From Planctomycetota bacterium (GTDB lineage Bacteria > Planctomycetota > Planctomycetia > Gemmatales > Gemmataceae), in contig JACPPF010000110.1 in assembly GCA_016191165.1 (NCBI GenBank), positions 1 to 64,000 of the forward strand: DNA of 64,000 nt. The letters run 5' to 3'. This document shows, piece after piece, positions 5,388 to 56,747 of this stretch; the first letter of the stretch is position 1; every line of letters begins with the position of its first letter. The notes beneath the pieces are model-generated. The model made no database searches. It was given only the letters and a program-made list of their open reading frames with translations, and was not told the DNA's origin. The translations under genes were made by a program, and so were the position numbers.

Positions 5388-5396
5388 GAGGTCCGT

Positions 5397-5423
5397 GGCC
5401 GCGCTCCCCTTCGGGTCGCGGCC
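5397..5423. terminator. Hairpin between convergent genes
   Basis: Stem GGCCGCG (5397-5403) / CGCGGCC (5417-5423) between the stop codons of the HlyIII-like gene and ppk2. There is no long T-run, so termination is inferred from position and stem stability only. Confidence 0.45.
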
Positions 5424-5434
5424 AAACGACTGGT

Positions 5435-6331: not shown

Positions 6332-6393
6332 GGTGAGGCCTCCGCATTCGAGCTATCAACGCGCAGCCGGCAGTTACCAGCCCCGCAGGATTG

Positions 6394-6521
6394 TTTCTCG
6401 CAAAAACGCAAAGGACGCAAAGAAAGAAAAGAGAACACAAGATCGAGGAGTACAAAGATGGAACAACTACAGGGGGTTCCCTCACCTGGATTCCTTTGCG
6501 TCCTTTGCGCCTTTGCGAGAA
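6394..6521. repeat. MITE-like element with TTTCTCGCAAAAACGCAAAG termini
   Basis: Inverted ends (left TTTCTCG...ACGCAAAGGACGCAAAG, right CTTTGCGTCCTTTGCGCC then TTTGCGAGAA) enclose about 65 unrelated bases. A second copy is at 19505-19637. Together with the palindrome at 6621 it fills the 416-base gap between ppk2 and the deacetylase gene; no other feature is visible there. Confidence 0.8.
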
Positions 6522-6620
6522 CTCGGGTTCTGGGCACTCGCTTACCCCTTTTCAACACGGCCGGCTTAGGTTCGTTGTAGCAATTTTGGCGACGGAATAT
6601 CCGGTAGTGTCTCAGTTTGA

Positions 6621-6676
6621 TGGTAGACCTCACGCTCCGCGTGAGGAATTCCTCACGCGAAGCGTGAGGTCTACCA
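6621..6676. repeat. Palindrome, TGGTAGACCTCACGC family
   Basis: TGGTAGACCTCACGCTCCGC / GCGAAGCGTGAGGTCTACCA with GAATTC at the centre: a near-perfect 56-base inverted repeat about 70 bases upstream of the deacetylase start. Confidence 0.85.
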
Positions 6677-6747
6677 TGCGCCGAAGCAAAGTGAGACACC
6701 ACCGAATATCCCCAGGCGAGGCGAATGTCCAGGCGTACAACAGCAAC

Positions 6748-7935
6748 ATGAAACCAATCCTGTTCACGAACGGCACCATCCTTTTGGCGGATCGCGAACT
6801 TCCCCTCGGCCAGGTCCTGGTGGTGGGCGATCGGATCGACCAGGTCGAGGCCAGGGCCGGGGCCGCGCCGGCGGACGCGGAGGTGATCGATCTGGCGGGT
6901 GGCTATCTGTCGCCCGGGTTTGTCGATGTCCACGTTCACGGCGGCGCCGGGCACGACTTCATGGACGGAACGGAAGCAGCGTTCCGCGCCGTATGCGTGG
7001 CCCACGCTCGCCACGGCACGACGAGCCTCCTGCCGACCACGACCGTGGCCCGGCACGAGCAGCATCTCGCGTTTCTGGAGGTTTGCCGGGCCTTGCGGGA
7101 TCGCGATACGGGCGGCGCACGAATTCTCGGCGCGCATTTCTATGGCCCGTATTTCGCCCGGGAGATGCGCGGTTGCCATCCGGGCGACCCGGTAAGGGCG
7201 CCGCTGGAACCAGAATACGAACAATATCTTAGCTTCGACTGCATCACGCGCGCCACGGTCGCGCCGGAGTTGCCCGGCGCCGAGGCGTTCCTGCGCGCGT
7301 GCCGGGCGCGAGGCATCGGAGGCAACGCCGGGCATTCTCATGCAACCTTCGAGCAGATGGAAGCCGCCCGGACCTGGGGCGTCACCCATGTCGATCATCT
7401 CTTCTGCGCCATGTCCGATCGCGCCCGCCTGCGCATCGAACAAACCTACCCCATGCGCGGCGGCGTCATGGAGGCGACACTTTTCTTCGACGATCTCACC
7501 ACCGAGGTGATCGCCGACGGCAAACATCTCCAGCGCGAGTTGCTCCTGCTGGCCTACAAGATCAAGGGGCCCGATCGCCTTGCCCTGGTCACCGATTGCA
7601 ATCGCGCCCTCGACATGCCCGACGGTCCCTACGTTTTCGGCCCCACGGACGGCGGCGAGACGATCCTGCGCCAGGACGGCGTCGGCATCACGCGCGACGG
7701 CAAGTCGCTCGCCTCCGGCGTCGTCGGCATGATCGAATGCGTCCGCACGTTTCATCGTCTCACCGGCGTGCCGCTCGTGGCGGTCATTCGCATGGCCAGC
7801 CTCACCCCCGCGCGCATCGCCGGCGCCGAACGCGACCTCGGCAGCATCGCCCCGGGCAAACGCGCGGATTTGCTGGTGCTGGATCGAGGGTTGAACGTGA
7901 AACAGGTTTTCGTGAGCGGCACCTGGGTGCCGTAA
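6748..7935 (+). CDS. nagA: N-acetylglucosamine-6-phosphate deacetylase-like amidohydrolase
   Basis: A 395-residue amidohydrolase. In the family this reaction converts GlcNAc-6-P to GlcN-6-P for amino-sugar catabolism or wall recycling. Visible motifs: 'GFVDVHVHGG' (His62, His64), 'GNAGHSHATFEQ' (His196), 'THVDHLFCAM' (His214/His217) and 'LVTDCNRALDMPDG' (Asp283). The usual 'HLEGP' metal-binding motif reads 'HFYGP' here, so the Glu ligand (Glu131 in E. coli NagA) is replaced by Tyr132. Folding and most catalytic residues look intact, but metal use or substrate may differ. The ATG at 6748 was chosen because the frame upstream consists of repeats. No nagB or sugar transporter is adjacent. Confidence 0.82.
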   Translation: MKPILFTNGTILLADRELPLGQVLVVGDRIDQVEARAGAAPADAEVIDLAGGYLSPGFVDVHVHGGAGHDFMDGTEAAFRAVCVAHARHGTTSLLPTTTVARHEQHLAFLEVCRALRDRDTGGARILGAHFYGPYFAREMRGCHPGDPVRAPLEPEYEQYLSFDCITRATVAPELPGAEAFLRACRARGIGGNAGHSHATFEQMEAARTWGVTHVDHLFCAMSDRARLRIEQTYPMRGGVMEATLFFDDLTTEVIADGKHLQRELLLLAYKIKGPDRLALVTDCNRALDMPDGPYVFGPTDGGETILRQDGVGITRDGKSLASGVVGMIECVRTFHRLTGVPLVAVIRMASLTPARIAGAERDLGSIAPGKRADLLVLDRGLNVKQVFVSGTWVP

Positions 7936-8039
7936 ACCCCATCTTCCGCCAGTGGTTTTCGCTCTTTCATCGTGACCATCCATGCGCATTCGGTTATCAT
8001 AACCATTAGAAAACGAACTCTCCGCCTGAGCATCAAATT

Positions 8040-11000
8040 ATGAAACAGTCCCTCCTGATTCTCTCGGTTCTCGTTTTGGCCCGCCCAGCCGCCGCCCAGG
8101 ACAAGATCACGCCAGAGCAACTCGAATTCTTCGAGAAGAACGTTCGCCCGGTCCTGGTGCAGCACTGTTTCGAATGCCACGCGGCAACGTCCAAGCGCGT
8201 GAAGGGCGGGTTGCGGCTTGACAGCCGGGCCGGATTGCTGGAAGGCGGCGACAACGGGCCGGCCATCGTGCCGGGTCAGCCCGAGAAGAGCCGGTTGATC
8301 GAGGCGATACGCTACACCAACGTCGATTTGAAGATGCCCAAGAAAGGCAAGTTGCCCGAGGCGATCATCGCCGACCTGGGCACGTGGGTCAAGATGGGCG
8401 CGCCCTGGCCGAATGAGAAGCTTATCAAGAAAAACACGTATACGGAATTTAACCTACAAAAAAGAAAAAACGCGCACTGGTGCTGGCAGCCGATCCGGGC
8501 CGGGAAGGCGCCGGCGGTGAAGGAAGCCAGCTGGCCCAAAGACGACGTGGATCGTTTCTTGCTCGCGAAGCTGGAGGCGAAGGGGCTCCAGCCTGCCAGG
8601 GATGCCGACCCGCGCACGTTGCTTCGGCGCGTTTATTTTGACCTCATTGGACTGCCGCCACCGCGGTCCGAGGTGGAGGAGTTTGTCAAGGCGTGCGAGG
8701 GGGCGAACGCCAGGCCGCAAGCGGCTTATGAAAAGGTCGTGGAGCGCCTGCTGGCATCGCCGCGGTTCGGCGAACGCTGGGCGCGCCACTGGCTCGACCT
8801 GGTGCGCTACGCCGAGAGCCGGGGGCATGAATTTGATTACACCATCCCGAATGCCCACCATTATCGCGATTACGTCATCCGCGCTTTCAACGGCGATGTG
8901 CCTTACAACCAGTTTGTCACCGAACATCTCGCGGGTGATCTGCTTGCGAAGCCGCGCATGCATCCCCTCACCCCCGACCCCTCTTCCGCGAAGGGGCGAG
9001 GGGGGGATAGCTTCAACGAATCGATCCTCGGCACCGCGTTCTGGTTCCTCGGCGAGGAGTGCCATTCCCCGGTCGATATTCGGCAGGATCAAGCCGACCG
9101 CTTCGACAACCGCATCGACGTGATGACGAAAACGTTCCTCGGCCTGACCGTGGCCTGCGCGCGCTGCCACGATCACAAGTTCGATGCGATTTCGACGAAG
9201 GATTATTACGCCCTGTTCGGCATTCTGGAGAGCAGCAACTATCGGCTGGCGCGGTTTGATACGATTGCGCACGAGCGCAAGATCGCGCGCGAACTCTGGC
9301 AACAGCGAATGGATGCCCGGCGCGAACTTCAGCAAGCGGTTGGCCTGGCCGTCGAGCCGGTCGTGCGCCAGATGGCTCGCTATCTGCTGACGGCGGCGGA
9401 CATCGAGGACCAAGGCGCCGGCCTGGATCCGGCGTTGCTCAAGCGCTGGAAGGCGGCCCTGGCTCGCGACGCCAGGGACGAAACGTCCCCGCTTTTCGCC
9501 TTCGCTCAGGTGGCGGCTCAGCGCAATCGCCCGGCGGCCGAGGTGCTGGCGCCACTCTTGCAGCGCTGGAAGCGCGAAGCAGAGAAACTCCCCAAAGGCG
9601 CGGAAGTCATCGTCGATTTCGCGACGGACGACGGGAACCCCATCGAGCCGGGTTTCGTCCGTTTGCAACCGGGCGACATCATTCTGGGGCCTTCGCCAGG
9701 CCGGCCCATCGGGCGAATCGTTGAACAGGCGGCGGTCGAACGCGATCGCGACTGGCATGGCTTGAAAGTCGCCGCCGGCACGCAGAACGAATCGGGCGCC
9801 CTGGGCGGCATGTTGCGCGCGGGGCGGACCCTGCGAACGCCCGAGTTCACGATCAAGCACCCCCGGGCCTTCGCGCTCGTCAAGGGCGTGGGCATGATCT
9901 ACGCCGGCGTCGGCCAGCACATCATGCTGGCCGGTCCGCTACACGGCAGCTTGGTCCAGCGATTTAACACCGGGGGCAAATTCCAGTGGGTGCCGATTTC
10001 GTTGCAGCCCTACCTGGGCCAGCGAGCTCATCTCGAGTTCACACCGAACGATGGGACCGATTTCGCCATCGTCAAAGTGATTCAATGCTCCGAGCCGCCA
10101 GCGCCTTATCAATTGTTTCCCCAGGCGCAGCTGCGTACGAACCTGATTAACGCGACGACGGCCCAGCGAACCGCCATGCTGACGCAATCAATGCACATCG
10201 GTCTGGTCAGCGTGTTGACGAAAGACCTGTTCCACAAACCGCCAAGCAAGACCGGCTTCGCGCCGATGGCCAACTGGTTGATGGGAAACCTCGACTTGTT
10301 CGTGCCGATCGGCGGTGCTGCCGAAAAGCGGCTGATCGAGACAGCGCGGCCAATCCTCGAAGCCCATGGCGCCAAGGTTGCCCAGATCCCGCGCGTGTCG
10401 CGCCTCGCCCCCGCCATGCAAGACGGCAGCGGCACCGACGAGTACGTCTTCACGCGGGGCAACCCCAAAACGCTCGGCGCAATCGCGCCACGCCGCTTCC
10501 TCGAAGCCTTCACCGGCGCCCAGGCGCTCAAGATCAAGTGCGGCAGCGGCCGGCTCGAACTTGCCGAACAAATGACCAACCCCGCCGTCACTCCGCTCAT
10601 CACGCGCGTCTACGTCAATCGCGTCTGGCATCACCTTTTTGGCCGGGGGATTGTCCCGTCGGTCGATAACTTCGGCGTTCTCGGCGAGGCGCCGACGCAT
10701 CCGGAGTTGCTCGACTATCTTGCGCATCGCTTTGCCCAACCCGACGGCCTCGACTGGTCCACGAAGAAGCTCATCCGCGCCCTGGTGCTGACACGCGCCT
10801 ATCAGATGGCATCGACGCCGGTCGCGAAGGCCGACGAGGCCGATCCGGAAAATCACCTATGGCATCGCCGAAACATCCGCCGGCTCGAAGGCGAAGCGAT
10901 CCGCGATTCGATCCTGAGCGTGTCGGGCCGATTGAATGACGCCATGTATGGCCCCGCGGTCCCGGTGTACCTGACGCCTTTTCAGGACGGTCGGGGCCGA

Positions 11001-11399
11001 CCGGGTTCGGGCCCGCTCGATGGCGCCGGTCGGCGGAGCGTGTATCTGGCAGTGCGGCGCAACTTCCTGTCGTCGTTCCTGCTCGCGTTTGACACGCCGG
11101 CGCCGTTTTCCACCGTGGGCCGGCGCACCGTCTCCAACGTGCCGGCGCAAGCGCTGATCCTGATGAACGATCCCTTCGTGCATCAGCAAGCCGAGGTCTG
11201 GGCGAAACGCGTCGTTGCCGAGAAAGGGAGTATCGAGGACCGCGTGCGCGGCATGTACGTGGATGCATTCGCCCGGTCGCCGAATGCGGCCGAGTTGCGC
11301 GCCTGCATGACCTACCTGGGAGCGACGCCGGATGCGCGGCGCTGGGCGGATCTGGGGCATGTGTTGATCAATACGAAGGAATTCTATTTCGTGAATTGA
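8040..11399 (+). CDS. PSCyt1-DUF1549-DUF1553 planctomycete cytochrome (PSD1 family)
   Basis: A 1119-residue exported protein with signal peptide 'MKQSLLILSVLVLA...AAAQ'. PSCyt1 heme site 'CFECH' at residues 43-47, followed by 'GGLRLDSRAGLLEGGDNGPA'. A DUF1549 domain has 'FGERWARHWLDLVRYAESRG' and a second CxxCH in 'CARCHDHKFDAI' near residue 375. The C-terminal DUF1553 domain has 'RVYVNRVWHHLFGRGIV'. These proteins are usually encoded next to a DUF1501 partner and are inferred to act in the periplasm on complex carbohydrate or sulfate-rich polymers; the biochemistry is unproven. The expected DUF1501 partner lies downstream, separated by a transposase. A repeat-derived insertion is at about residues 309-322. 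Confidence 0.92.
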   Translation: MKQSLLILSVLVLARPAAAQDKITPEQLEFFEKNVRPVLVQHCFECHAATSKRVKGGLRLDSRAGLLEGGDNGPAIVPGQPEKSRLIEAIRYTNVDLKMPKKGKLPEAIIADLGTWVKMGAPWPNEKLIKKNTYTEFNLQKRKNAHWCWQPIRAGKAPAVKEASWPKDDVDRFLLAKLEAKGLQPARDADPRTLLRRVYFDLIGLPPPRSEVEEFVKACEGANARPQAAYEKVVERLLASPRFGERWARHWLDLVRYAESRGHEFDYTIPNAHHYRDYVIRAFNGDVPYNQFVTEHLAGDLLAKPRMHPLTPDPSSAKGRGGDSFNESILGTAFWFLGEECHSPVDIRQDQADRFDNRIDVMTKTFLGLTVACARCHDHKFDAISTKDYYALFGILESSNYRLARFDTIAHERKIARELWQQRMDARRELQQAVGLAVEPVVRQMARYLLTAADIEDQGAGLDPALLKRWKAALARDARDETSPLFAFAQVAAQRNRPAAEVLAPLLQRWKREAEKLPKGAEVIVDFATDDGNPIEPGFVRLQPGDIILGPSPGRPIGRIVEQAAVERDRDWHGLKVAAGTQNESGALGGMLRAGRTLRTPEFTIKHPRAFALVKGVGMIYAGVGQHIMLAGPLHGSLVQRFNTGGKFQWVPISLQPYLGQRAHLEFTPNDGTDFAIVKVIQCSEPPAPYQLFPQAQLRTNLINATTAQRTAMLTQSMHIGLVSVLTKDLFHKPPSKTGFAPMANWLMGNLDLFVPIGGAAEKRLIETARPILEAHGAKVAQIPRVSRLAPAMQDGSGTDEYVFTRGNPKTLGAIAPRRFLEAFTGAQALKIKCGSGRLELAEQMTNPAVTPLITRVYVNRVWHHLFGRGIVPSVDNFGVLGEAPTHPELLDYLAHRFAQPDGLDWSTKKLIRALVLTRAYQMASTPVAKADEADPENHLWHRRNIRRLEGEAIRDSILSVSGRLNDAMYGPAVPVYLTPFQDGRGRPGSGPLDGAGRRSVYLAVRRNFLSSFLLAFDTPAPFSTVGRRTVSNVPAQALILMNDPFVHQQAEVWAKRVVAEKGSIEDRVRGMYVDAFARSPNAAELRACMTYLGATPDARRWADLGHVLINTKEFYFVN
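8964..9006. repeat. Palindrome, CCCCTCACCCCC family, in frame in the PSD1 gene
   Basis: CCCCTCACCCCCGACCCCTC ... GAAGGGGCGAGGGGGG, read as 'PLTPDPSSAKGRGG' just before the 'NESILGTAFWFLGE' motif of DUF1549. Confidence 0.85.
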
Positions 11400-11419
11400 C
11401 GTACTACAAGCGCCGCGCG

Positions 11420-11490
11420 CTACCAGCCCCACGCGCAAGCGTGGGGATTTGAGCAACCCCGATCCCCACGCTTGCGCGTGGGGCTGGTGG
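11420..11490. repeat. Paired REP palindromes upstream of the RAYT gene
   Basis: Two inverted copies: CCAGCCCCACGCGCAAGCGT (then GGGG) and its reverse complement, joined by a 14-base linker ATTTGAGCAACCCC. The arrangement is that of a paired REP (BIME-like) unit. It begins 20 bases after the PSD1 stop codon and ends in the ribosome-binding region of the transposase. Confidence 0.9.
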
Positions 11491-11493
11491 AAA

Positions 11494-11499
11494 AGGAGG
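11494..11499 (+). promoter_or_regulatory. Ribosome-binding site deciding the RAYT start
   Basis: AGGAGG directly abuts an ATG at 11500 but stands six bases before an in-frame GTG at 11506, which makes the GTG the better-spaced start. Confidence 0.55.
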
Positions 11500-11505
11500 A
11501 TGAAC

Positions 11506-11958
11506 GTGTCGGAACCGATCGCCTATCACATCACATGGACGACCTATGGGACGTGGCTTCCGGGCGACGCACGCGGATGGGTCAAGAAAACCGAAGCCGG
11601 AATTCACGCTGGCCGGGAATCGCTGAAAGCAAGCGCAGAAAGAGGCATCGCACAAGCCGCAGTGACCTTGAGCGACGCTCAGCGACAGACCGTCGAGGAA
11701 ACAATCCACCGCCATTGCCACATCCGCGGCTGGGAAATTCACGCGTTGAATGTACGCACCAATCATGTTCACGTGATCGTGTCGGCGCCGGAGGTTCCAG
11801 AAAAGGTGATGGGGGAATTCAAGGCATGGTGCTCACGAAAATTGAATGAAATGGCAGGCGTCAACCAAAAATGGTGGACGCATCACGGCAGCACGAAATG
11901 GATCAACGACGGCGCGTACCTGGAGAATGCGATAAGATACGTAGTGGAAGGGCAATAA
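11506..11958 (+). CDS. REP-associated tyrosine transposase (RAYT, IS200-like Y1 family)
   Basis: About 150 residues. The HUH motif is 'TNHVHVIVS' and the family N-terminus is 'YHITWTTYGTWLPGDARGW'. The C-terminal catalytic Tyr lies in 'LENAIRYVVEGQ'. These are hallmarks of RAYTs, single-strand DNA transposases domesticated to act on REP palindromes. The gene is flanked on both sides by paired palindromes of one family, as expected for a RAYT and its cognate REPs. The GTG at 11506 (or ATG at 11500) is the likely start; longer frames run into the repeat. The gene separates the PSD1 cytochrome from its usual DUF1501 partner. It appears intact. Confidence 0.88.
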   Translation: MSEPIAYHITWTTYGTWLPGDARGWVKKTEAGIHAGRESLKASAERGIAQAAVTLSDAQRQTVEETIHRHCHIRGWEIHALNVRTNHVHVIVSAPEVPEKVMGEFKAWCSRKLNEMAGVNQKWWTHHGSTKWINDGAYLENAIRYVVEGQ

Positions 11959-11963
11959 AGCCA

Positions 11964-12101
11964 ACTAGCCCCGCGCGCTACCAGCCCCGCGCGCTACCAG
12001 CCCCACGCGCAAGCGTGGGGATTTGAGCAACCCCGATCCCCACGCGCAAGCGTCGGGATTTGAGCAACCCCGATTCCCACGCTTGCGCGTGGGGCTGGTA
12101 T
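11964..12101. repeat. REP palindrome cluster downstream of the RAYT gene
   Basis: Starts with two direct units of GCGCGCTACCAGCCCC, then CCACGCGCAAGCGTGGGGAT, a second direct copy (CCCACGCGCAAGCGTCGGGA) and finally an inverted copy ending TTGCGCGTGGGGCTGGTA. The linker TTTGAGCAACCCCGAT recurs twice, as in the upstream pair. The cluster shows both tandem and inverted amplification of the same unit. Confidence 0.9.
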
Positions 12102-44028: not shown

Positions 44029-45981
44029 ATGAATCCAGTCACCGACACGCCCGAAAAAGAAACCGCGAGCTTTGCCGAGACCGCCATGCGCATGGGCGGC
44101 AAGAGCGAGGAAGAAGCGCGCCGCATGGGCGCGATGGACAAGGCCGACGAACAAGTCGATCGCATGTTCCGTTTTCACACGTCGAACAGCCCGATCCACA
44201 AGGCGATCTGGGACGGCAAGGTCCCGCTTGACCTTTTCCAGGCCCCGCCCGTGACGGGCTCGGCGCCATGCGACGTGGTGATGGACAAATCGCTTGACGT
44301 GATCCGCCATCGGCGCGAGCAAGGCGCGTTGCTCAATCAAGACAAGAAACTCTCCGATGAAACGATCAACGAACTCGCCGCCGCCGGCTACTGGGGCTTG
44401 CTCATCGATCCCAAGTACGGCGGGTCGGGCGCTCCGTTTGTGCGCTTCGCCCCCTTTCTCACGCGCATGGGCGTCCTTGATTCGATGACCTCAGCCTTGG
44501 CGTCCGTGCATGGTTGCATCGGCGCCGTGGATCCGCTGCGCACGTTTGGCACCGACGAGCAGAAGGATCGCCTGTTGCCGATCCTCGCAAGCGGTTCGAA
44601 AATCTCCGGATTCGCGCTGACGGAACCATGCGCGGGCTCCGATCTCACCGCGCTCAAGACGACCGCGACGCTGGTCGGCGATCATTACGAGATCACGGGC
44701 GAAAAGCTCTTCATCACCAACATCGTACCAGGGCGAATCATCGGCCTCGTTGCCGTCCTTGATGGCAAACCTGCCGTGTTTATCGCTGAACTTCCGGACC
44801 AGGAGAACGAAGAATTCCAGATTGTGCGCTATGGCCTCTACGCGCTCAAGCAAGCTTACAACGTCGGCATGAAGTTCAACCGCTTTCGCGTGCCCAAGGA
44901 AAACCTGCTCAAGCCGCCGTCGGGCGACGGGCTCACCATCGCCTACCACGGCCTCAACCTCGGCCGACTGTCGCTTTGCGCTGGCGCAGCCGCCAGCATG
45001 CGCATCTTCCTGGCAAACATTCTGCCGTGGGCCAACTTTCGCAGGACCTACGGCCAACCGATTGAAACGCGCGAGCTGGTCAAGCGCCGCATCGCTCGCC
45101 TGGCGGCGCTGATCGCCGGGGCCGACGCGCTCGTTGCCTGGGGTTCCTGGCTCATCGACCAGGGTTACCGCGGCGAGCTGGAGTGTATCATCGCCAAGAT
45201 CTTTGGGTCCGAGGCGCAGAAGGAAGCCGCCATCGAGTTGTTCATGAAAACGCACGGCGGTCGCTCGTTCCTCCACGGCCATCTGTTCGGCGACAACGTT
45301 CACGAATACCTGGCGCCCTGCATCTACGAGGGCGAAGGCGAGATGCTCGGCATGGCGTTTTTCAAGTCGCTCGTCAAGGAACATGGCAAAGCCTACTTCG
45401 AGCCGATCGGCAAAGCGCTGCAAACACATCAGATCAAGAATTTCAATCCGCTCAATCCCGCGCACCTCTGGAAGCTGCGCGGCGAATTGTCCGCGTATGC
45501 GAAATGGACCTTTAGCCGCAAATGGATGAGCGTGGACCGTGACAGCGTCGAAGGCCTCGACGGCAGGCTGGCCGAGCATCTGCGTTTCGCCCAGGACATG
45601 TGCCAGAAGCACGCGACGGAACTTTCAAACGCGATGAGCAAGCACCAGCTCAAGCTCGCCGATCGCCAGTGCCGGATCGCGGAGCTATCGCAGCGCGTGC
45701 AGGACACGATCGTGATGATTGTCACGCTGATGTGGGCCCACAACACTCCCCTCGCCCCCGCCAGCCCCGAGCGCGAGCGAGGGGGTTCGAGAGCGGGGAA
45801 ACGGGACATCGCCATCGCGTCCGCCGACATCCTGTGCCAGGACCTGCGCCGCAAGCTGACAGGCGAACGGCCCTCGGACCAATACTTCCGCGCCGTGGGT
45901 GAGCTGGCCGACCAGATCATCGCGGGCGGGTTTGAGGAGTTGAGCGGGGTGCCACGCGAGGAGATATTGATGAAGTATTGA
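44029..45981 (+). CDS. Acyl-CoA dehydrogenase family protein with repeat-derived insertion
   Basis: 650 residues, longer than the usual 380-400 because of a C-terminal domain as in FadE-like/VLCAD-type enzymes. The FAD-binding and catalytic core shows in 'GFALTEPCAGSDLTALKTTA', 'GEKLFITNI', 'AIELFMKTHGGRSFLHGHLF' and the active-site region 'CIYEGEGEMLGMAFF' (Glu base). The first step of beta-oxidation is the likely reaction. Near residues 573-590 a repeat is translated as 'PLAPASPERERGGSRAG', after 'VMIVTLMWAHN'. ACGGAGG precedes the ATG. No other beta-oxidation gene is adjacent. Confidence 0.92.
   Translation: MNPVTDTPEKETASFAETAMRMGGKSEEEARRMGAMDKADEQVDRMFRFHTSNSPIHKAIWDGKVPLDLFQAPPVTGSAPCDVVMDKSLDVIRHRREQGALLNQDKKLSDETINELAAAGYWGLLIDPKYGGSGAPFVRFAPFLTRMGVLDSMTSALASVHGCIGAVDPLRTFGTDEQKDRLLPILASGSKISGFALTEPCAGSDLTALKTTATLVGDHYEITGEKLFITNIVPGRIIGLVAVLDGKPAVFIAELPDQENEEFQIVRYGLYALKQAYNVGMKFNRFRVPKENLLKPPSGDGLTIAYHGLNLGRLSLCAGAAASMRIFLANILPWANFRRTYGQPIETRELVKRRIARLAALIAGADALVAWGSWLIDQGYRGELECIIAKIFGSEAQKEAAIELFMKTHGGRSFLHGHLFGDNVHEYLAPCIYEGEGEMLGMAFFKSLVKEHGKAYFEPIGKALQTHQIKNFNPLNPAHLWKLRGELSAYAKWTFSRKWMSVDRDSVEGLDGRLAEHLRFAQDMCQKHATELSNAMSKHQLKLADRQCRIAELSQRVQDTIVMIVTLMWAHNTPLAPASPERERGGSRAGKRDIAIASADILCQDLRRKLTGERPSDQYFRAVGELADQIIAGGFEELSGVPREEILMKY
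45746..45797. repeat. Half-REP of the RAYT family, in frame in the acyl-CoA dehydrogenase gene
   Basis: ACTCCCCTCGCCCCCGCCAG, CCCCGAGCGCGAGCGAGGGG. The stretch CCAGCCCCGAGCGCGAGCGA resembles the RAYT-type REP (CCAGCCCCACGCGCAAGCGT). Confidence 0.75.
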
Positions 45982-46031
45982 CAGTGCGTCCCTGGTACAA
46001 TGGACTGATTGATCCAATCGGGAGGTCCGTC

Positions 46032-46352
46032 ATGGAATTGCCCGTGATTATTGAGCCGTTGCCCGCCCGGCCTGGGTTTTCCGCGCGGCTGGCGGCGTCG
46101 ATCGATATATCGGCCGAAGGCGCGACCGCGGACGAGGCCGAGCAGAAGTTGGCGGAGCTTGTGTACGAGAAACTCCGCAACGGGACCGAGCTTCGCACGC
46201 CGCGCCTCGGCGTGCCGCGCGGCGGTTGGTTGCCGGACGACGAGTTGACCCGGGAATGGTTGCAGCACATGAAGGATTATCGAGACGAATGCGACGCTCG
46301 GGATCGCGAGGAACTTGAGCAACTCGAAAAATCTGAAGAGGGATCAAAATGA
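46032..46352 (+). CDS. Antitoxin-like protein paired with a PIN toxin
   Basis: 106 residues. N-terminal 'PLPARPGFSARLAASIDISA' and 'ATADEAEQKLAELVYEKLRN' resemble the beta-alpha HicB-like fold used by some antitoxins. The C-terminal acidic helix ('KDYRDECDARDREELEQLEK') could wrap a toxin. GGGAGG precedes the ATG. The stop overlaps the next ATG as ATGA, so the two are translationally coupled. Assigned by context. Confidence 0.65.
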   Translation: MELPVIIEPLPARPGFSARLAASIDISAEGATADEAEQKLAELVYEKLRNGTELRTPRLGVPRGGWLPDDELTREWLQHMKDYRDECDARDREELEQLEKSEEGSK

Positions 46353-46768
46353 CGTTGTTCGTTTTGGACACGGATCACGTGTCCTTGCTCGAAAAGGGCA
46401 ACGTTCAAATTCTCAAGACAATCATCGCGCACAGCATGGACACGATTGCGATTACCGTGATAACCATTGAGGAACAACTCGAAGGCTGGCAACGAGCGCT
46501 TCGCCAAGCCACGCAAGACATCCACCGCGAGCAAATCTATCGGCGCATGGCCCAAACCGTCGAAAGTCTTTCGGGCCGGCCCATTCTGCCCTACACTTGC
46601 GTTGCCATGCAACACCGCCTGTCACTTCTCCGAATGCGCCTGAACGTCGGCAGCAATGACCTGAAAATCAGCGCTATTGCGCTCGAATTTCAGGCCACCG
46701 TCGTCACGCGGAACAAACGTGATTTTGGCCGGATTCCGCGACTGCCGCTGGCGGATTGGAGCGTGTGA
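46349..46768 (+). CDS. PIN-domain ribonuclease (VapC-like toxin)
   Basis: 139 residues. First acidic motif 'LFVLDTDHVSLLEKG', central 'VITIEEQLEGWQRALRQA' with its Glu, and C-terminal 'VGSNDLKISAIALEFQATVV' with 'TRNKRDFGRIPRL': the four acidic residues of a PIN nuclease. VapC proteins cleave RNA, often tRNA. It overlaps the upstream antitoxin-like gene by four bases. Confidence 0.85.
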   Translation: MTLFVLDTDHVSLLEKGNVQILKTIIAHSMDTIAITVITIEEQLEGWQRALRQATQDIHREQIYRRMAQTVESLSGRPILPYTCVAMQHRLSLLRMRLNVGSNDLKISAIALEFQATVVTRNKRDFGRIPRLPLADWSV

Positions 46769-47705: not shown

Positions 47706-49277
47706 TCAGCGCAAGCCCACGAAGCTGCCCTTGTGCTCGCGCGCCAGTGCCCACAGGAAGGCGCCTACGTCGGGGCTTTCGAAAAAGAAACCGACCGCGT
47801 TGATGCGAACGTCGTTGAGATTGGCCGCGGGGCGATTCCATTCGGACTTGAGCTTTTCGCGAACGAATTTGCTCAGGTAGTGGTTCTTTTGCGTTTCGGA
47901 TGGGCGGGCGATGGTGCTGGGTACGCCATCCCCCAGGTTGGGCAGGCCGTCGGAGAAGAGGTAGATGGTGTCGAGCTGGCTTTTGCGATACCGGAAGGCC
48001 TCGTCGAAGGCGTCGTGCATGTTGGTGCCCCCCTCGACTTTGATCTTGCGCAGCGCGTCGCGGGCCATCTTCGCGGTGGCGGGGCCTTCGTATTTGAACC
48101 ACGAATCGCGCTTGCCGAATAAGTACGATGTCTTATCAGAAAAAAGTATGATCTGAAAACGCCGCATGGTCGGGATGCTCTTCATGAGCTTCATCAGCGT
48201 TTCGCACAGGAAGGGCCATTTTTCGGGATCGTCGGTGTTTTCATCTTTAAGGGCCATGCTGCCGGAGATGTCGATGAGGAAGATGACATTCTCGCCGGTG
48301 AGCGGGATGCCGGCGAAGCGCTGATCGACCTCGGCTTGCAAGTCGGCGATGCGGCGTGTCAGCCTGTCCTTTTCGAGGCGTGCGCCGCTCAGCTCCTTGG
48401 CATTGGCGCCGACCTTGTCTTTCCAGCCGTCGCGCTCGGCGGTCAGGGCGGCGATCAGGTCCTTGGCGTCGAGGAGTTCCTTGGCGCCGGCCTTCAGATT
48501 CTTCGCCAGGTTCCCTTTGGTTGTGAGGAGCGTGAGAATGTCGGTGCGGGATTTGTCGAGTTCCTGCTGGCGCATTTTGAGTTGCAGCTCGGTCAAGGTG
48601 AGCTTCGCCTGAGTTTTCTTGCTGTCGTCGCGAAGAGCCGCCAGGAGCAATTGCAACTTGCGGGCGTTTTCTTCGGACAGCTTGAGCAGGCCGGCCTGCT
48701 GTTGTGCCTTCTTGCTCCCGAGCGAGAGTTCGTCCTTGAGGGTCGCGACCTGCTTGCCCGCCAGGGCGATCTTGGCAAGGAGCTCGGCGTTGAGTTTGAC
48801 CAGGCCGGTCTTCTCCGCCGTCGATTTCTTGTAAGACGCCAGCAGTTTTTCGAGATCGTCTTCGAGTTTCTTGAGCTGCTCCCGGCTCAGGGCCAGATTG
48901 GTGCGCGTCTTGTCGAGAACATTGAGGCGATCGGCCGCCATGGCGCGGGCGTCATCCCGTTCCTTTCGCGTGGCGGCGAGAATTCCGCTCAAGGTTTGAT
49001 GCTTGTCGCGCCAGTCCGCGAGGGTCTTTTGTAAGGCGGTGACATCGTTGGCAGCCGACAGAAAATCGGACTGAGCCTTCTCATACTGCTTGCGTGCCCG
49101 CACCGCGGCGGCGCTTTGCGACTGGGCATCGCTCTGGGATTGCCTGGCCGAGGCGGTCTGCGTCTCCGCCTCCTGGTGCGCCACCTGCCAGAGCAGGACC
49201 ACGCAACCCAGCGCGCAGCAGATCACGTCGAGCATGTAGATGTTGAAAATCGTCGGAACCTTATGGCGCAGTAACAT
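47706..49277 (-). CDS. TolR/MotB-like transmembrane coiled-coil protein with C-terminal vWA domain
   Basis: 523 residues. One N-terminal membrane segment 'YMLDVICCALGCVVLLWQVA' with Asp17 at its start, the position of the proton-carrying Asp of ExbD/TolR/MotB. Then about 290 residues of charged coiled coil ('LSREQLKKLEDDLEKLLASY', 'ELQLKMRQQELDKSRTDILT'). Then a vWA domain with a complete MIDAS: 'FLIDISGSM' (Asp336, Ser338, Ser340), Thr418 in 'EGGTNMHDAF' and Asp443 in 'YLFSDGLPN'. The coil and vWA would lie in the periplasm if the topology follows TolR. It is encoded downstream of a MotA/TolQ-like channel and an ASKHA-FHA protein. Partners in an ion-driven complex are inferred. Confidence 0.85.
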   Translation of the reverse strand: MLLRHKVPTIFNIYMLDVICCALGCVVLLWQVAHQEAETQTASARQSQSDAQSQSAAAVRARKQYEKAQSDFLSAANDVTALQKTLADWRDKHQTLSGILAATRKERDDARAMAADRLNVLDKTRTNLALSREQLKKLEDDLEKLLASYKKSTAEKTGLVKLNAELLAKIALAGKQVATLKDELSLGSKKAQQQAGLLKLSEENARKLQLLLAALRDDSKKTQAKLTLTELQLKMRQQELDKSRTDILTLLTTKGNLAKNLKAGAKELLDAKDLIAALTAERDGWKDKVGANAKELSGARLEKDRLTRRIADLQAEVDQRFAGIPLTGENVIFLIDISGSMALKDENTDDPEKWPFLCETLMKLMKSIPTMRRFQIILFSDKTSYLFGKRDSWFKYEGPATAKMARDALRKIKVEGGTNMHDAFDEAFRYRKSQLDTIYLFSDGLPNLGDGVPSTIARPSETQKNHYLSKFVREKLKSEWNRPAANLNDVRINAVGFFFESPDVGAFLWALAREHKGSFVGLR

Positions 49278-49293
49278 CGGGGTATCCTGAAGG

Positions 49294-49360
49294 GTTTAGC
49301 CGCCTGCCTTGGGCGGGCGGGCTGATCCAGCGCTCGCTCGCCAAAGGCGAGCGGCTAAAC
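49294..49360. repeat. Palindrome, GTTTAGC family, with two inner hairpins
   Basis: Outer arms GTTTAGCCGC / GCGGCTAAAC, with inner hairpins CGCCTGCC/GGGCGGGCG and CGCTCGCTCGCC/GGCGAGCG. It fills the spacer between the ASKHA-FHA and vWA genes. Confidence 0.85.
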
Positions 49361-49378
49361 CTGGATTTGGAATTTCGT

Positions 49379-50905
49379 TCACCATTCACCGCGCACCAGC
49401 AAGCGCGGCGGCGCCGTTACCTTGCCCAAGAAACGCAACGTGGGGCCGCGCGCGGAAAGGCGAATGCGGTCGCCCGCTTGCAGGACCTTCGGGCCGGTCA
49501 CCAGCTGCTCATTCACGAGGGTCCCCTGGCTACAAAAGTTATACAGCGTGAACCCGCGCGGCTCCCGCACGATCTGGCAATGCCGCGGCGCCACGTCGGG
49601 GTGTCGGGCCGCGTCAAAATGAAGCTGGCAGCCATATTGCGTGCCGATCGTGAATGTGCCTTCGCGCAGCGAATAGTCGTGACCCTCAAAATGCAGGCGC
49701 GGCGGCCCGGCCTCGACCGGCTCGACCGATGCCAAAGGTGCGATCGTTTCCAGGTGGCCCTTCGGAATCTGGCCGCGCCGAAACGCCTCGCCCAGAGCAT
49801 GCGCCGCCCGCGCCGGCGCTTCGGGTGGCAACACCAGCACCCCGCCGCGCCCCTCGGCCTCGGGGATCATCAACGCCTCGCCGAAATCGTCGTCCTGGAA
49901 ACTCGTCACCCGCGTCGTCGGCAGCTTCGTCTCCGAGCCTGGCGCCGAAAGCACCAGCGCATGCAGGGCATCGACCAGGCCCGGCAGCCTCGCGGCATCG
50001 TGCGTCATCACGATGCTCCGCGCCTCGCCGCTCGGCCAGCCCATCAACAGGCTGTGCGCCTCGGCTTGCGCTTGCCGGGTCAACGCTTCGGTGAAGTGCC
50101 TGACCTGCTCCGGATGGACGATCAGGTGCTTGTACCATTGCTGGGCTTGCACGCCGATCTGGATGGCCTGGTGCTTGAGCGCAGCATCGAGCAGCGGTTC
50201 GAGTTGATCGTAAAGGCCTTGCTCGGCCAGCGGGGCGTCGCGCGGGTCGCGGCGGTGATGCCAGACGAACGCCTCGGCCAGCGCATCGATCAACCGCTCG
50301 CGCCAGGCCTGAAGCCCCAGGCGCGGGAAGGTTTGCACGTCGATCAAATGCGCCTGATCGTTTTGCGCCTGCACCCAGCCGAATGTCAACGCCTGGTCAT
50401 CGGCATCCACCACCAAAACGCTGCGTTGCCAAAATTGCTCCGCGTGCCCCGCCAGCGCCGCGGCCAGCAAAGCCGGCAGCGAGCCGAACACCGGCAGACG
50501 CCCGCGTTCGCCCAGTCCGCGAAGAACGTCCGCCTGCGCAGCCTCCAGGTAGCCGGGCAGGGTCAAGACGATGCTCTTGGAATTCGTGCCGAGATCGCGG
50601 AGGCGGCGCCACACCACCTCGCACGCGGCGCGGGCATCGAGCGCGTGCCTACCCGCCTGCCAGCGCGGACCTTCGTTTGCAGTGCCGGTGACGAAAGGCA
50701 GAAAATTCTGGCAGACCAGATGGGGGGTACGCCGACACACGCGCAGCGCCGCTCCCCCCACCTCCGGCGTCGAGCCCTCAAGCCCAATCGCCAGCGGCAG
50801 GTCCAGGCCCGGCGGCTCCAGCGCGACCGGCAGAGGATATTCCCCCGCCGGACCGAGCACCGCACGCACCCGCGTCGCGTTCCAGTCCAGCGCCAGCACC
50901 GTCAT
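49379..50905 (-). CDS. Actin/Hsp70-like (ASKHA) protein fused to an FHA domain
   Basis: 508 residues. The first 350 follow the Hsp70/actin plan: 'MTVLALDWNATRVRAVLGP' (phosphate-1 loop), 'VGGAALRVCRRTPHLVCQNF', 'VFGSLPALLAAALAGHAE', 'VLVVDADDQALTFGWV' (phosphate-2, but with the Gly-rich loop replaced) and 'SIVMTHDAARLPGLVDALHA' (adenosine loop). Eroded loops suggest weak or no ATP hydrolysis. From about 405 comes a forkhead-associated domain: 'EGTFTIGTQYGCQLHF', 'VAPRHCQIVREPRGFTLYNF', 'QGTLVNEQLV', 'LQAGDRIRLS'. FHA reads phospho-Thr peptides in the cytoplasm. Its ATG overlaps the stop of the MotA-like gene (ATGA). No family known to me combines these domains. Confidence 0.75.
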   Translation of the reverse strand: MTVLALDWNATRVRAVLGPAGEYPLPVALEPPGLDLPLAIGLEGSTPEVGGAALRVCRRTPHLVCQNFLPFVTGTANEGPRWQAGRHALDARAACEVVWRRLRDLGTNSKSIVLTLPGYLEAAQADVLRGLGERGRLPVFGSLPALLAAALAGHAEQFWQRSVLVVDADDQALTFGWVQAQNDQAHLIDVQTFPRLGLQAWRERLIDALAEAFVWHHRRDPRDAPLAEQGLYDQLEPLLDAALKHQAIQIGVQAQQWYKHLIVHPEQVRHFTEALTRQAQAEAHSLLMGWPSGEARSIVMTHDAARLPGLVDALHALVLSAPGSETKLPTTRVTSFQDDDFGEALMIPEAEGRGGVLVLPPEAPARAAHALGEAFRRGQIPKGHLETIAPLASVEPVEAGPPRLHFEGHDYSLREGTFTIGTQYGCQLHFDAARHPDVAPRHCQIVREPRGFTLYNFCSQGTLVNEQLVTGPKVLQAGDRIRLSARGPTLRFLGKVTAPPRLLVRGEW

Positions 50906-51759
50906 CGTCCGCCCCTCTCCGGCAAACTTCCCGCGATCATCCCACCAGGCAACATCCCGGGCCCATGCCCAACGCCCCCGGCCGACAAGACCGGTTCGTA
51001 AAGACGATTGACCAGATGTTCCAGGCAGAACTGCTGGCAATCGATCACCAGCGATTCCTCCTCGCGCTGCAACGTGTGTATCATGAACATCGCAATCAGA
51101 CTCAGGCCCAGCGCCACCAGCGTGCAGTCAAACGCAATCGTCAGGTGCTCCGTCGCGATCCGCAATTGCTCACCCCCCTGCCCCGCCAGCGTCATGCTGC
51201 CCGCAAGGCCACGCACGGTGCCGAAGAATCCGATGGCCGGGATCGCCCACGCCAGGTAGTTCATGGTCGCCATGCTGGAGATCAATCGACCCAGATCGAC
51301 ATCGGCCTGCGTCTTCAGCGTCTCCCGCACGTCAAGGCTTGATCGACTCAAGGCGAGTTTTGACAACCCCGCGCGAATCATGTTGGCCAGGATGAACGGG
51401 CCGTACTGCGTGTTGATTTGATCGACGATACGCTGCAAGGGCCTGGCGTCCTCCGGCAAGATGCGCGTACCTTCCTCGGTGGACAACAGGCCCAAAGAAA
51501 AAGCGTGCCGCTGCCGGCGCGTCTCGAAAAATCGCCCCAGGAAAATAAACGCGCTCCAAACGAAACAGACATAGCAGGCGATCTGTTCGGGGCCAAGAAG
51601 CAGTTTCGCCCAGCGTTCCGGCGGCCAGGTCAGCCAGGTGTCGGTTTGTTCCTGGGCGTAGTTCTGCCAGAGCGGAAAAACGATGACCCCGATCAGAAGC
51701 ACTGCCAGGACCAGGAGCGGCCATTCGCGCGTCGAGCGTTGCGAGGGAGTCAAGGGCAT
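50902..51759 (-). CDS. MotA/TolQ/ExbB-like proton channel protein
   Basis: 285 residues. An N-terminal membrane segment 'PLLVLAVLLIGVIVFPLW', a second at 'IACYVCFVWSAFIFLGRFF', then the TolQ/ExbB core: 'YLAWAIPAIGFFGTVRGLAG' and 'AFDCTLVALGLSLIAMFMIH' with a long cytoplasmic helix between. Such proteins form the stator pentamer of ion-driven motors. GAAGGAAC precedes the ATG. It is the first gene of the three-gene cluster. Confidence 0.9.
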   Translation of the reverse strand: MPLTPSQRSTREWPLLVLAVLLIGVIVFPLWQNYAQEQTDTWLTWPPERWAKLLLGPEQIACYVCFVWSAFIFLGRFFETRRQRHAFSLGLLSTEEGTRILPEDARPLQRIVDQINTQYGPFILANMIRAGLSKLALSRSSLDVRETLKTQADVDLGRLISSMATMNYLAWAIPAIGFFGTVRGLAGSMTLAGQGGEQLRIATEHLTIAFDCTLVALGLSLIAMFMIHTLQREEESLVIDCQQFCLEHLVNRLYEPVLSAGGVGHGPGMLPGGMIAGSLPERGGR

Positions 51760-51980: not shown

Positions 51981-52046
51981 ACCAGCCCGGAGCGCAAGCG
52001 ACGGGGCAGATGTCCGCTGGACCCGTCGCTTGCGCTCCGGGCTGGT
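51981..52046. repeat. REP-like palindrome with T-run, CCAGCCCGGAGCGC type
   Basis: ACCAGCCCGGAGCGCAAGCG and its inverted partner ending GCTCCGGGCTGGT. It is followed by nine T at 52052-52060, like an intrinsic terminator for rightward transcription, though no rightward gene ends here. The remaining 51760-52237 (478 bases) holds short hairpins (for example GCGCGAG/CTCGCGC at 52197-52222) and no gene. Confidence 0.85.
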
Positions 52047-54071: not shown

Positions 54072-56747
54072 TCAATGTCCCGGCGGCGGCGTTGGCGTCC
54101 CTTCCTTGGGCGGAATCCGCATCGCGTAGAACGACCGCCAGACGAAGACCAGCGCCAGCAAGAAAAACCCGATGCCGACCATCCAGGTGAAATCGAACGC
54201 GGAGTTCTGCTTGATCTCGATGGCGATTTCCACGGCCAGAAGACCGAACAGCGTGGAAAACTTGATGATCGGGTTGAGCGACACCGACGTCGTGTCCTTG
54301 AATGGATCGCCGACCGTATCGCCGACCACGGTGGCGGCGTGCAGCGACTTGTACGCTTCCGTGCCCTTTTCCTTGCGGAGATCGACTTCCACGTACTTCT
54401 TGGCATTGTCCCATGACCCGCCCGCGTTGGCCATGTAGATCGCCTGGAACAACCCAAACACGGCGATCGACACCAGATACGCGACGAAGAAGTTGGGATC
54501 GAAGAGCGCGAAGGCGAGCGTGATGAACATGAGGGCGAGGAAGATATTCCACATGCCCGCTTGAGCGTACTCGGTGCAGATTCGCACGACGGTGCGCGAA
54601 TCCTCGATGTCGGCTTCCTTCTTGGTCAGGTCCATATTCTTCTTGATGTACTCCACCGCGCGATACGCGCCGGTGGTGACCGCCTGCATCGACGCGCCGC
54701 AGAACCAGTAGATCACCGACCCGCCGCAAATGAAGCCCAGCAGCACCGGCGCATCGGTCAGGCTCAGGTGCAACATGCCCGCCTTGCCCAGGAGCAAGAT
54801 GATGGCGAAGATCATCGTCGTCGCCCCGACGACCGCGGTGCCGATGAGCACCGGTTTTGCCGTGGCCTTGAACGTGTTGCCCGCGGAATCGTTCGCCTCG
54901 AGATAGTGTTTGCCCTGCTCGAAGTTCGGCACGAAGCCGAAATCGCGCTGGATCTCCTCGCTGATGCCCGGAATGTGCTCCGTCTGCGCGAGTTCAAACA
55001 CCGACTGGGCGTTGTCAGTCACGGGGCCGTAGCTATCGACGGCAATGTTGACCGGTCCCATGCACAGGAACCCGAAGGCGACCAGGCCGAACGCGAAGAT
55101 CGAACCGACGCCAACCTTCTTGGCCGCGTTGAATTCGTTGGTGACCTGCAGCTTGATGCCCGGGTGCATCTGTTCGAGTTGTTCGAGGGTGCGGGTTTTT
55201 TCCTGGGGCACGCGGCTCTGCCATTCGGCGAGCACCTTCTTCTGGGTTTCCAGGTCGGTCTTGTTTTTCAGCGTGGCGGATTCGGACTTTTCAAGTTCGA
55301 CCTGCATGACGCTGTTGATGCCTCCTTCAACGGTGCTGACGAAGAAGGCGGCGCCCATCAAGCCGGCGATGAGGATGCCTTTCCAGAAGGCGCTGAAGTT
55401 GCCCGCGACCAGGCCGGAGAGGATCGTCAGCGATGCGCCGCCTTCGCGGGAGGCGGTGACGATTTCGTGGACGTGCTTGGAGTGCGAGCTGGTGAAGACC
55501 TTGGTGAACTCGGGGATGAGCACTGCCGCGAGGGTTCCACAGCTGATAATCGTGGCAAGCTGCCACCAGAGGTGAGGTTGCAGGTTCCCGCGGATGGTGA
55601 TGTCGCCGATCAAAAGCCAGCTCATGCCGTAGGAAGTCGAGATGCACAGGATGGAGGCGATCCAGATGAGGCGCGTCAGGGGCTGCTCGAAGTCGAATTC
55701 TTTCTTGCCCTTGTACATGCGTTCGGAGATCCACTGGTTGATGAAGTAGGACACGCCGGACATGAAGTCCATCAGGAAGCGCATGCCGAAGATCCAGACG
55801 ATGAGCTTGCCCTGGATGTCTTCATATTCGCCCGGGAAGGCGACTTGCGTGATGGCGAGGGTGATGAACGTGATGAGCGCGACGCCGGTGACGCCGTAGG
55901 TCTCGAAGCCGTCGGCCGTCGGGCCGACCGAGTCGCCAGCGTTGTCGCCGGTGCAGTCGGCGATGACGCCGGGATTGCGCGGATCGTCTTCCTTGACATT
56001 GAAAACGATCTTCATCAGATCCGAGCCGATGTCGGCGATTTTGGTAAAGATGCCGCCCGCGATGCGCAAGGCCGAGGCGCCGAGCGATTCGCCGATCGCG
56101 AAGCCCAGGAAGCAATACCCGACAATTTCGCGTGGCACCGCCAGCAGAATGATGACCATCAAGACCAGTTCAACCGAGATGAGGAACAACCCGACCGACA
56201 TGCCCGCTCGCAGCGGCAGATTGACAACATCCCAGGGTTCGCCGCGCAAGGAGGCGAAAGCGGTGCGAGCATTGGCGTAGGTATTGACCCGGATGCCGTA
56301 CCACGCCACCGCGTAAGACCCGCCCATGCCGACGATGGAGAAACCGAGCACGTAAGCGACCGTGTCGATCCCCTTGTGGCTCAGCCCCATCAGGTAATAA
56401 GTCAACGCGGCCGCGATGATGACGAAGAGCATCAACAGAAATTTGCCCTGCTGAATCAGGTACGTCTTACAAGTCTCGAAAATGATGTCGGCCACGGCGA
56501 GCATGGATTTGTGCGCGGGCTGGGCGTGAATCTGCTTGAGCTGAAACAGGCTGATGCCGATCGTGCCGATGATGACGAAGGAGCCGAAGAAGAGAAACGC
56601 CCCGGCACTGATGTTGAATCCGAAGATCGAGAACGAACCATGTTGCCAAAGGTCCGGAATGACGAGATCGCCTTCACCGGCCTGTGCGACGGTGGCGCCC
56701 AGAAGAAGAATTGGAATTGCCCAGATCAGGTGTTTGAGTAACCGCAT
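54072..56747 (-). CDS. hppA: Membrane-bound ion-translocating pyrophosphatase
   Basis: 891 residues, about 16 membrane spans, longer than usual. It hydrolyses pyrophosphate and pumps H+ (or Na+). Substrate motifs: 'DDPRNPGVIADCTGDNAGDS' near residue 255 and 'VVGDTVGDPFKDTTSVSLNP' near the C-terminus, with 'GGSWDNAKKYVEVDL'. In the 'GNTTAA' region it reads 'GNTFKATAKP': a Lys at the position that separates K+-independent from K+-dependent enzymes, which predicts K+ independence. The 'SVGPTADGFE' stretch replaces the usual 'CAGMAADLFE', placing it in a divergent branch. It lies downstream of a 115-base repeat. Confidence 0.93.
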   Translation of the reverse strand: MRLLKHLIWAIPILLLGATVAQAGEGDLVIPDLWQHGSFSIFGFNISAGAFLFFGSFVIIGTIGISLFQLKQIHAQPAHKSMLAVADIIFETCKTYLIQQGKFLLMLFVIIAAALTYYLMGLSHKGIDTVAYVLGFSIVGMGGSYAVAWYGIRVNTYANARTAFASLRGEPWDVVNLPLRAGMSVGLFLISVELVLMVIILLAVPREIVGYCFLGFAIGESLGASALRIAGGIFTKIADIGSDLMKIVFNVKEDDPRNPGVIADCTGDNAGDSVGPTADGFETYGVTGVALITFITLAITQVAFPGEYEDIQGKLIVWIFGMRFLMDFMSGVSYFINQWISERMYKGKKEFDFEQPLTRLIWIASILCISTSYGMSWLLIGDITIRGNLQPHLWWQLATIISCGTLAAVLIPEFTKVFTSSHSKHVHEIVTASREGGASLTILSGLVAGNFSAFWKGILIAGLMGAAFFVSTVEGGINSVMQVELEKSESATLKNKTDLETQKKVLAEWQSRVPQEKTRTLEQLEQMHPGIKLQVTNEFNAAKKVGVGSIFAFGLVAFGFLCMGPVNIAVDSYGPVTDNAQSVFELAQTEHIPGISEEIQRDFGFVPNFEQGKHYLEANDSAGNTFKATAKPVLIGTAVVGATTMIFAIILLLGKAGMLHLSLTDAPVLLGFICGGSVIYWFCGASMQAVTTGAYRAVEYIKKNMDLTKKEADIEDSRTVVRICTEYAQAGMWNIFLALMFITLAFALFDPNFFVAYLVSIAVFGLFQAIYMANAGGSWDNAKKYVEVDLRKEKGTEAYKSLHAATVVGDTVGDPFKDTTSVSLNPIIKFSTLFGLLAVEIAIEIKQNSAFDFTWMVGIGFFLLALVFVWRSFYAMRIPPKEGTPTPPPGH

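Follow-up and report, generated by a model that had tools for sequence, protein, structure and literature searches.

A TolQ-like channel, a degenerate Hsp70-like protein and an Asp-helix vWA protein encoded together across Gemmatales: a candidate ion-driven motor with a cytoplasmic third subunit

In cases where three neighbouring genes on one strand encode a channel subunit of the MotA/TolQ type, an actin/Hsp70-like (ASKHA) protein joined to an FHA domain and a membrane-anchored vWA protein, the question arises whether their products form a single machine and, if so, of what kind. Such a trio is found in the 64,000-nucleotide stretch of contig JACPPF010000110.1 (assembly GCA_016191165.1, a planctomycete of the family Gemmataceae) that was analysed here, and that is referred to below as the window. 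To our knowledge, the well-studied motors of this family all pair a channel with an Asp-helix protein (plus TonB or TolA). The activation of the Ton and Tol motors is described as still poorly understood (PMC12905483). The answer argued for below, which we hold to be probable while leaving room for others, is that the products of the cassette make up an inner-membrane motor that is driven by ions and belongs with TolQR, ExbBD and MotAB, and that has a cytoplasmic Hsp70-like third subunit. If this is true, a conserved cytoplasmic Hsp70-like subunit, together with the FHA domains and kinases of its relatives, would offer a direct route to motor control. The envelope and uptake biology of Gemmatales is debated, and the same reading would give this order a periplasmic machine of near order-wide occurrence, cultivated genera included.

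The features of the cassette are collected in Table 1. The ATG start of the Hsp70-like gene at 50905 overlaps the stop codon of the channel gene (ATGA), and both this overlap and the positions of the three genes are as given in a preliminary description of the window, made from its letters alone.

Table 1 Positions and supporting evidence for the three-gene cassette and its domains in the window.
Feature	Position	Strand	Evidence or remark
Three-gene cassette	51759-47706	minus	order: channel, Hsp70-like, vWA
TolQ/ExbB/MotA-like channel subunit, 285 aa	50902..51759	minus	Pfam MotA_ExbB 3.6e-11, over cut-off
Hsp70 NBD-like (ASKHA) protein with C-terminal FHA, 508 aa	49379..50905	minus	Pfam, profile, fold
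Hsp70-NBD-like domain, residues ~1-380	49766..50905	minus	DnaK profile, AF2 fold
FHA domain, residues 419-483	49457..49651	minus	Pfam FHA 7.2e-10
One-helix, coiled-coil, vWA protein, 523 aa	47706..49277	minus	Pfam VWA_2 1.5e-8
vWA-protein membrane helix, residues 10-28	49194..49250	minus	hydropathy and invariance
vWA domain core, residues 331-444, complete MIDAS	47946..48287	minus	Pfam VWA_2, residue check

The first step is to establish whether the three genes belong together. In an initial set of loci the trio occurs in identical order and on the same strand in 36 of 41, and in a subsequent genome scan all three genes are present in 57 of 74 planctomycete loci. Fifteen of the 17 loci that fall short of the full trio lie where the contig ends, the break falling within the channel gene itself or no more than about 1.2 kb beyond the final gene, and if these are left aside the trio is found in 57 of the 59 sufficiently complete loci; the co-occurrence of the three families, on which the preliminary description had staked its interpretation, thus holds in both sets. 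The median intergenic distances are 56 and 40 bases; channel and ASKHA genes overlap in 13 of 64 pairs. Within Gemmataceae a strong channel orthologue (E < 1e-30) is present in 85 of 95 genomes and the vWA protein (E <= 1e-8) in 84 of the 95, the genera concerned including the cultivated Gemmata, Limnoglobus and Zavarzinella, while in the sister family of Gemmatales the channel orthologue occurs in all 7 genomes; four of the five sister-family loci inspected carry all three genes (L130, L132, L133 and L135), and in the fifth (L131) the channel alone was recognised. Some of the Gemmataceae genomes without the cassette are incomplete assemblies. From three others (G059, G068 and G070), which are 90-100% complete, it seems to be genuinely absent, so that the cassette cannot be essential everywhere.

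No further conserved neighbour was found within about 6 kb of the trio in the loci of relatives, from which it follows both that no separate tolR or exbD accompanies it and that the cassette is self-contained. Conservation of the trio across an order means that the layout is not due to chance, and the view that the three genes form one unit is supported, with the proviso that linkage inside one order in part reflects vertical inheritance. For the same reason the correlations of between-protein distances for the trio (0.88-0.90) are no evidence of contact, such values being expected for vertically inherited genes. As to the surroundings of the cassette, the window encodes, upstream and on the same strand (54072-56747, minus), an 891-aa membrane protein that by eye resembles a proton-pumping pyrophosphatase; conservation of this gene beside the cassette was not found in the neighbourhoods of relatives (about 6 kb). 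One same-genus genome (locus L212; L067 comes from the same genome) has, downstream of its cassette at 10535-12079, a tandem second vWA-like protein of 514 aa, which is about 42% identical to the vWA part of the window's protein and for which Pfam reported no VWA domain. Gemmatales cassettes also turn up in two records titled Bacteroidales and Candidatus Kuenenia (L161 and L205), which are probably misnamed metagenome assemblies.

Turning to the individual proteins, the preliminary description assigned the first gene to the MotA/TolQ channels, and as regards the family this stands (Table 1), the fold being nearer to TolQ and ExbB than to flagellar MotA. As its sequence profile gave no match in the PDB at E-values up to 0.01, the comparison was made by fold. 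The AlphaFold (AF2) model (pLDDT 83.6) lies nearest to TolQ (8odt; Z 15.1 over 209 residues, 3.8 Å), and the ranking runs from TolQ and ExbB through ZorA to the flagellar stators; it must be remembered that mostly helical folds match easily, and the Foldseek E-values for this channel are weak (best 1.2e-3). The match to TolQ begins at residue 44, implying that the first helix (residues 13-31) comes on top of the TolQ core, and the channel is accordingly predicted from the model to carry an extra N-terminal membrane helix ahead of its TolQ-like part. Two threonines, T181 and T213, are invariant in all 72 orthologues and align with T148 and T181 of ExbB from E. coli K-12, so that the channel does carry the threonines that would match an Asp in the vWA protein. 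In the solved complexes ExbB T148/T181, TolQ T145/T178, ExbD Asp25 and TolR Asp23 are reported as the essential residues (PMC12905483).

The position of ZorA in this ranking (Z 10.5-11.1) brings to mind an anti-phage defence motor akin to Zorya (ZorAB), which likewise combines a MotA-like channel and an Asp-helix, MotB-like partner with extra genes. This explanation is in our judgement very improbable: TolQ is closer by fold, there is no long ZorA tail and no ZorC, ZorD or ZorE, the other partners being different, and PADLOC reported no defence family and no match to any Zorya protein, while the near-universal, vertical presence of the cassette in the order contrasts with the scattered occurrence that defence systems usually show.

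The protein that would pair with the channel is the product of the third gene, for which the preliminary description had proposed a single membrane segment, an Asp in the position used by TolR and MotB, and a vWA domain with a complete MIDAS, all three of which are borne out. Hydropathy gives one membrane helix, with the sequence IFNIYMLDVICCALGCVVL, in which the TolR/ExbD-type Asp17 is invariant, together with Cys20, Cys21, Gly24 and Cys25, in 53 of 53 orthologues; the five MIDAS residues (D336, S338, S340, T418 and D443) are invariant in the same 53. The first 12 residues of every one of these orthologues have a net positive charge (+2 to +3), so that under the positive-inside rule the N-terminus would be cytoplasmic and the vWA head would lie outside. 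Between helix and head, a coiled coil spanning residues 35-320 or so is proposed on the basis of weak SMC-like matches and of composition. Adhesion by the vWA head, as suggested in the preliminary description, is considered here as a candidate role, on which these data bear neither way.

The preliminary description knew of no system with this composition. In fact motors made of TolQ and an Asp-bearing vWA protein are already described in a recent study (PMC12204202, Mol Biol Evol 2025), without an Hsp70-like subunit, and the idea of a motor built from channel and vWA protein is therefore already published. That study reports membrane-anchored vWA proteins with an Asp-bearing helix that co-occur tightly with tolQ in the absence of tolR and exbD, mostly as pairs of different vWA genes and mostly in Proteobacteria and Verrucomicrobia, proposes that TolQ and vWA form a motor, and presents AF3 models of the vWA-TolQ complex in which the Asp lies within the Thr ring of a TolQ pentamer. 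The first of its vWA families is stated there to have no reported phenotype, and none is given for the second. The Gemmatales cassette resembles the second family in that a tolQ-like gene adjoins an anchored vWA gene with no tolR or exbD, in its Asp helix and channel threonines, and in a helix that lacks the SHLS motif; it differs in its vWA protein, which is single and very long-stalked, in the Hsp70-like third gene, and in belonging to a planctomycete order. On these shared features the cassette may be placed with the transpore-helix vWA-TolQ type (PMC12204202). Hsp70, ASKHA and DnaK are not mentioned in the text of that paper, and no other relevant literature on TolQ-vWA, FHA and Hsp70 combinations was found in open-licence PMC. 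Measured against the open-licence literature, what appears to be new is thus the Hsp70-like subunit, the single vWA on a long stalk, the occurrence nearly throughout Gemmatales and the link to kinases and FHA domains; the third subunit in particular appears to have been overlooked so far, and would extend by one part the TolQ-vWA motor that was proposed recently, the published description of which has no Hsp70-like gene. As compared with TolQR, ExbBD and MotAB, the cassette shares the channel family, the Thr ring and the Asp helix, whereas the periplasmic part is a vWA head instead of a TolR/ExbD or peptidoglycan-binding domain, and the Hsp70-like subunit and the extra N-terminal helix of the channel are additions.

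For the second protein, the homology to ASKHA proteins suggested in the preliminary description is confirmed over the whole of an Hsp70 nucleotide-binding domain (NBD). A profile built from the orthologues aligns with DnaK across the entire NBD (5obx, 2.6e-15), and the AF2 model of the ASKHA-FHA protein (pLDDT 90.5) superposes on Hsp70 NBDs with Z 33.9 over 347 residues, spanning residues 1-380 and with a low-confidence insert at about residues 320-355; this Z score is to the RAC complex, which contains Ssz1. The protein thus shares a whole NBD with Hsp70 proteins such as DnaK and Ssz1. No substrate-binding domain was found, the NBD being followed directly by the FHA domain or by the end of the protein. 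In the alignment with DnaK the DLGTT phosphate loop, the NEPTAAA motif with the catalytic Glu, the DLGGGT loop and the adenosine motif GG(S)xR are all replaced, while Asp169 is invariant among the orthologues. With its ATP motifs degenerate in this way the protein is unlikely to hydrolyse ATP, although it may still bind it weakly.

The FHA domain fused to it is real in the window, as the preliminary description had it, but the suggestion made there that it senses phosphorylation is not supported in that form. It is present in only 15 of 62 ASKHA orthologues and absent from the other 47, and in the window's copy GT stands for GR, APRH for SxxH and QGT for NGT, so that the three phosphothreonine-binding residues (Arg, Ser and Asn) are lost and phospho-sensing is unsupported in this genome. 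The GR Arg and SxxH Ser are lost in nine of the 15 FHA-bearing orthologues, the window's included, and kept in six. The relatives L116 and L117 (see below) retain the canonical FHA residues and have kinase genes as neighbours, and there the sequences do support the idea.

How the Hsp70-like protein relates to the channel is suggested by locus L206 (Gemmatales bacterium KatS3mg105), in which channel (MotA) and ASKHA are naturally fused in frame as a single protein of 674 aa with no internal stop. Provided that the channel has TolQ-like topology, the ASKHA part then sits on the cytoplasmic C-terminus, and a natural fusion makes it probable that there is one ASKHA protein per channel subunit. This bears on the possibility, which we consider rather unlikely, that the motor is real and that the Hsp70-like protein is merely an assembly chaperone or cytoskeletal adaptor and neither a subunit nor a gate. 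Actin-fold adaptors are known in type II secretion and type IV pili (GspL and PilM), the protein is an Hsp70 homologue by both sequence and fold, and the missing substrate-binding domain and degenerate ATP motifs fit an adaptor well; a fusion to the channel is, however, difficult to reconcile with a chaperone that acts transiently, as is the strict retention of ASKHA in single- and paired-vWA versions of the system and in two phyla.

The evidence for two phyla comes from loci outside Gemmatales. The sample of the class contains two related clusters, of which L117 has genes for a kinase, an FHA protein, an FHA-trypsin protein, ASKHA-FHA, channel and vWA, and L116 resembles it with a short helix protein where the vWA protein stands; kinase and FHA genes occur in both neighbourhoods. 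A third related cluster (L217), from a more distant planctomycete family, has the whole of the extended set described below. When the L117 channel was used as query against 392 genomes of the phylum it found matches in just three, so that either the distant members are rare or the query is too narrow. The genome scan also yielded four gammaproteobacterial channel genes, and in these Gammaproteobacteria the best match to the Hsp70-like profile lies near the channel gene in three cases out of four, whereas in the remaining one the two are on different contigs; a further search gave hits in four of 185 genomes and supplied L243-L245. In the gammaproteobacterial loci and in L243-L245 the ASKHA gene adjoins one or two vWA genes with an Asp helix, and the vWA-helix Asp, Cys21 and Gly24 are invariant in all 12 sequences compared, Gammaproteobacteria included. 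The ASKHA third subunit therefore recurs with channel and vWA in Gammaproteobacteria and in other planctomycetes, where genes for Ser/Thr kinases and FHA proteins are often close by.

Several of these loci (L217, L234-L237 and L243-L245) share an extended operon, common to a planctomycete and Gammaproteobacteria, that comprises two putative lipoproteins, a TPR protein, a protein with four to five PEGA repeats and an FGE-sulfatase domain, a small protein, the channel, ASKHA and a vWA pair. Like the Gemmatales cassette, the extended operons of Gammaproteobacteria and G572 (L235, L245 and L217) keep MotA, ASKHA and vWA together; what they have beyond it is the second vWA of the pair, the TPR protein (fused in L243 to a protein kinase; Pkinase 3.3e-30), the PEGA-FGE protein, the small protein and the two putative lipoproteins. 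In some extended loci the channel gene runs on the other strand, or no channel gene was seen in the stretch examined (L243 and L244). Pairs of vWA genes occur in L217, L235, L237 and L245, a single vWA gene in the window and in nearly all Gemmatales. The small protein, of about 100-130 aa (L235 4395-4721, L217 8613-8954, L245 10053-10352), has a conserved C-terminal tail, FVPT..I.EDL.V.FP.DI.

The kinase, FHA and FGE genes around these relatives lend some colour to a different interpretation, according to which there is no motor at all and the assembly is an ion-flux sensor or anchor, a gated tether by which strain on the envelope is signalled to the cytoplasm via ASKHA and FHA in the manner of a receptor. 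The vWA stalk could pass strain inwards, and TolQ-type parts by themselves are no proof of work; yet the full set of ion-transfer residues is invariant, which would be needless in a passive tether, and the Gemmatales version has no conserved kinase neighbour. This interpretation is, in our estimation, improbable.

Returning to the motor with a cytoplasmic Hsp70-like subunit, the way in which it might work can be outlined as follows. Five TolQ-like subunits would form the channel, and two vWA proteins would send their N-terminal helices into its pore (a 5:2 assembly), where Asp17 would carry ions past the ring formed by T181 and T213. Ion flow would cause the vWA pair to turn or shift, so that force would be passed to the long periplasmic stalk, and the metal-dependent vWA head could then grip a partner in the wall, in the outer membrane or outside the cell, for which the putative lipoproteins and the PEGA-FGE protein of the extended operons are candidates. 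The Hsp70-like protein would dock on the cytoplasmic side of the channel, presumably one copy to each TolQ-like subunit, where its role may be to scaffold or gate the channel and not to hydrolyse ATP. A broader proposal, which we put forward tentatively and with less conviction than the motor itself, is that this is a distinct and ancient class of three-subunit motor common to Planctomycetota and Gammaproteobacteria, with a TolQ-like channel, an Asp-helix vWA rotor and a cytoplasmic ring of Hsp70-derived pseudo-ATPases; it might originally have been switched by Ser/Thr kinases via FHA, the Gemmatales cassette being its minimal, three-gene form.

A few further observations concern the rest of the window and its genome. 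On the upstream side of the cassette, at 51987-52040, lies an inverted repeat of 19 bases, exact on both strands, of which none would be expected by chance, and the interval between the Hsp70-like and vWA genes (49295-49360) is by eye rich in palindromes (gtttagccgc ... gcggctaaac). A scan with Rfam gave no match, and scans for terminators and promoters gave about the number of matches expected by chance. At 45978-46768 on the plus strand a gene for a 124-aa protein is followed by an overlapping one for a PIN-domain protein (139 aa; Pfam PIN 2e-5), a layout like that of toxin-antitoxin pairs. The channel HMM also matches a second, longer MotA paralogue (about 450-600 aa) that occurs in many planctomycetes and was set aside as belonging to another system (L105, L121, L125 and L134), its neighbourhoods containing one or two other coiled-coil helix proteins; in L125 a normal-looking DnaK-type gene lies upstream, and this locus was not counted as a cassette. 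The window's own genome has such a cluster (L105, on contig C119 of G000, 5082-9454), in which a MotA paralogue of about 440 aa stands with two helix/coiled-coil partners, the helix of one reading FPFLAVLLC, with no Asp, and that of the other DSFLDLVTNVVG, with the Asp kept; clusters of this kind may possibly represent another undescribed motor.
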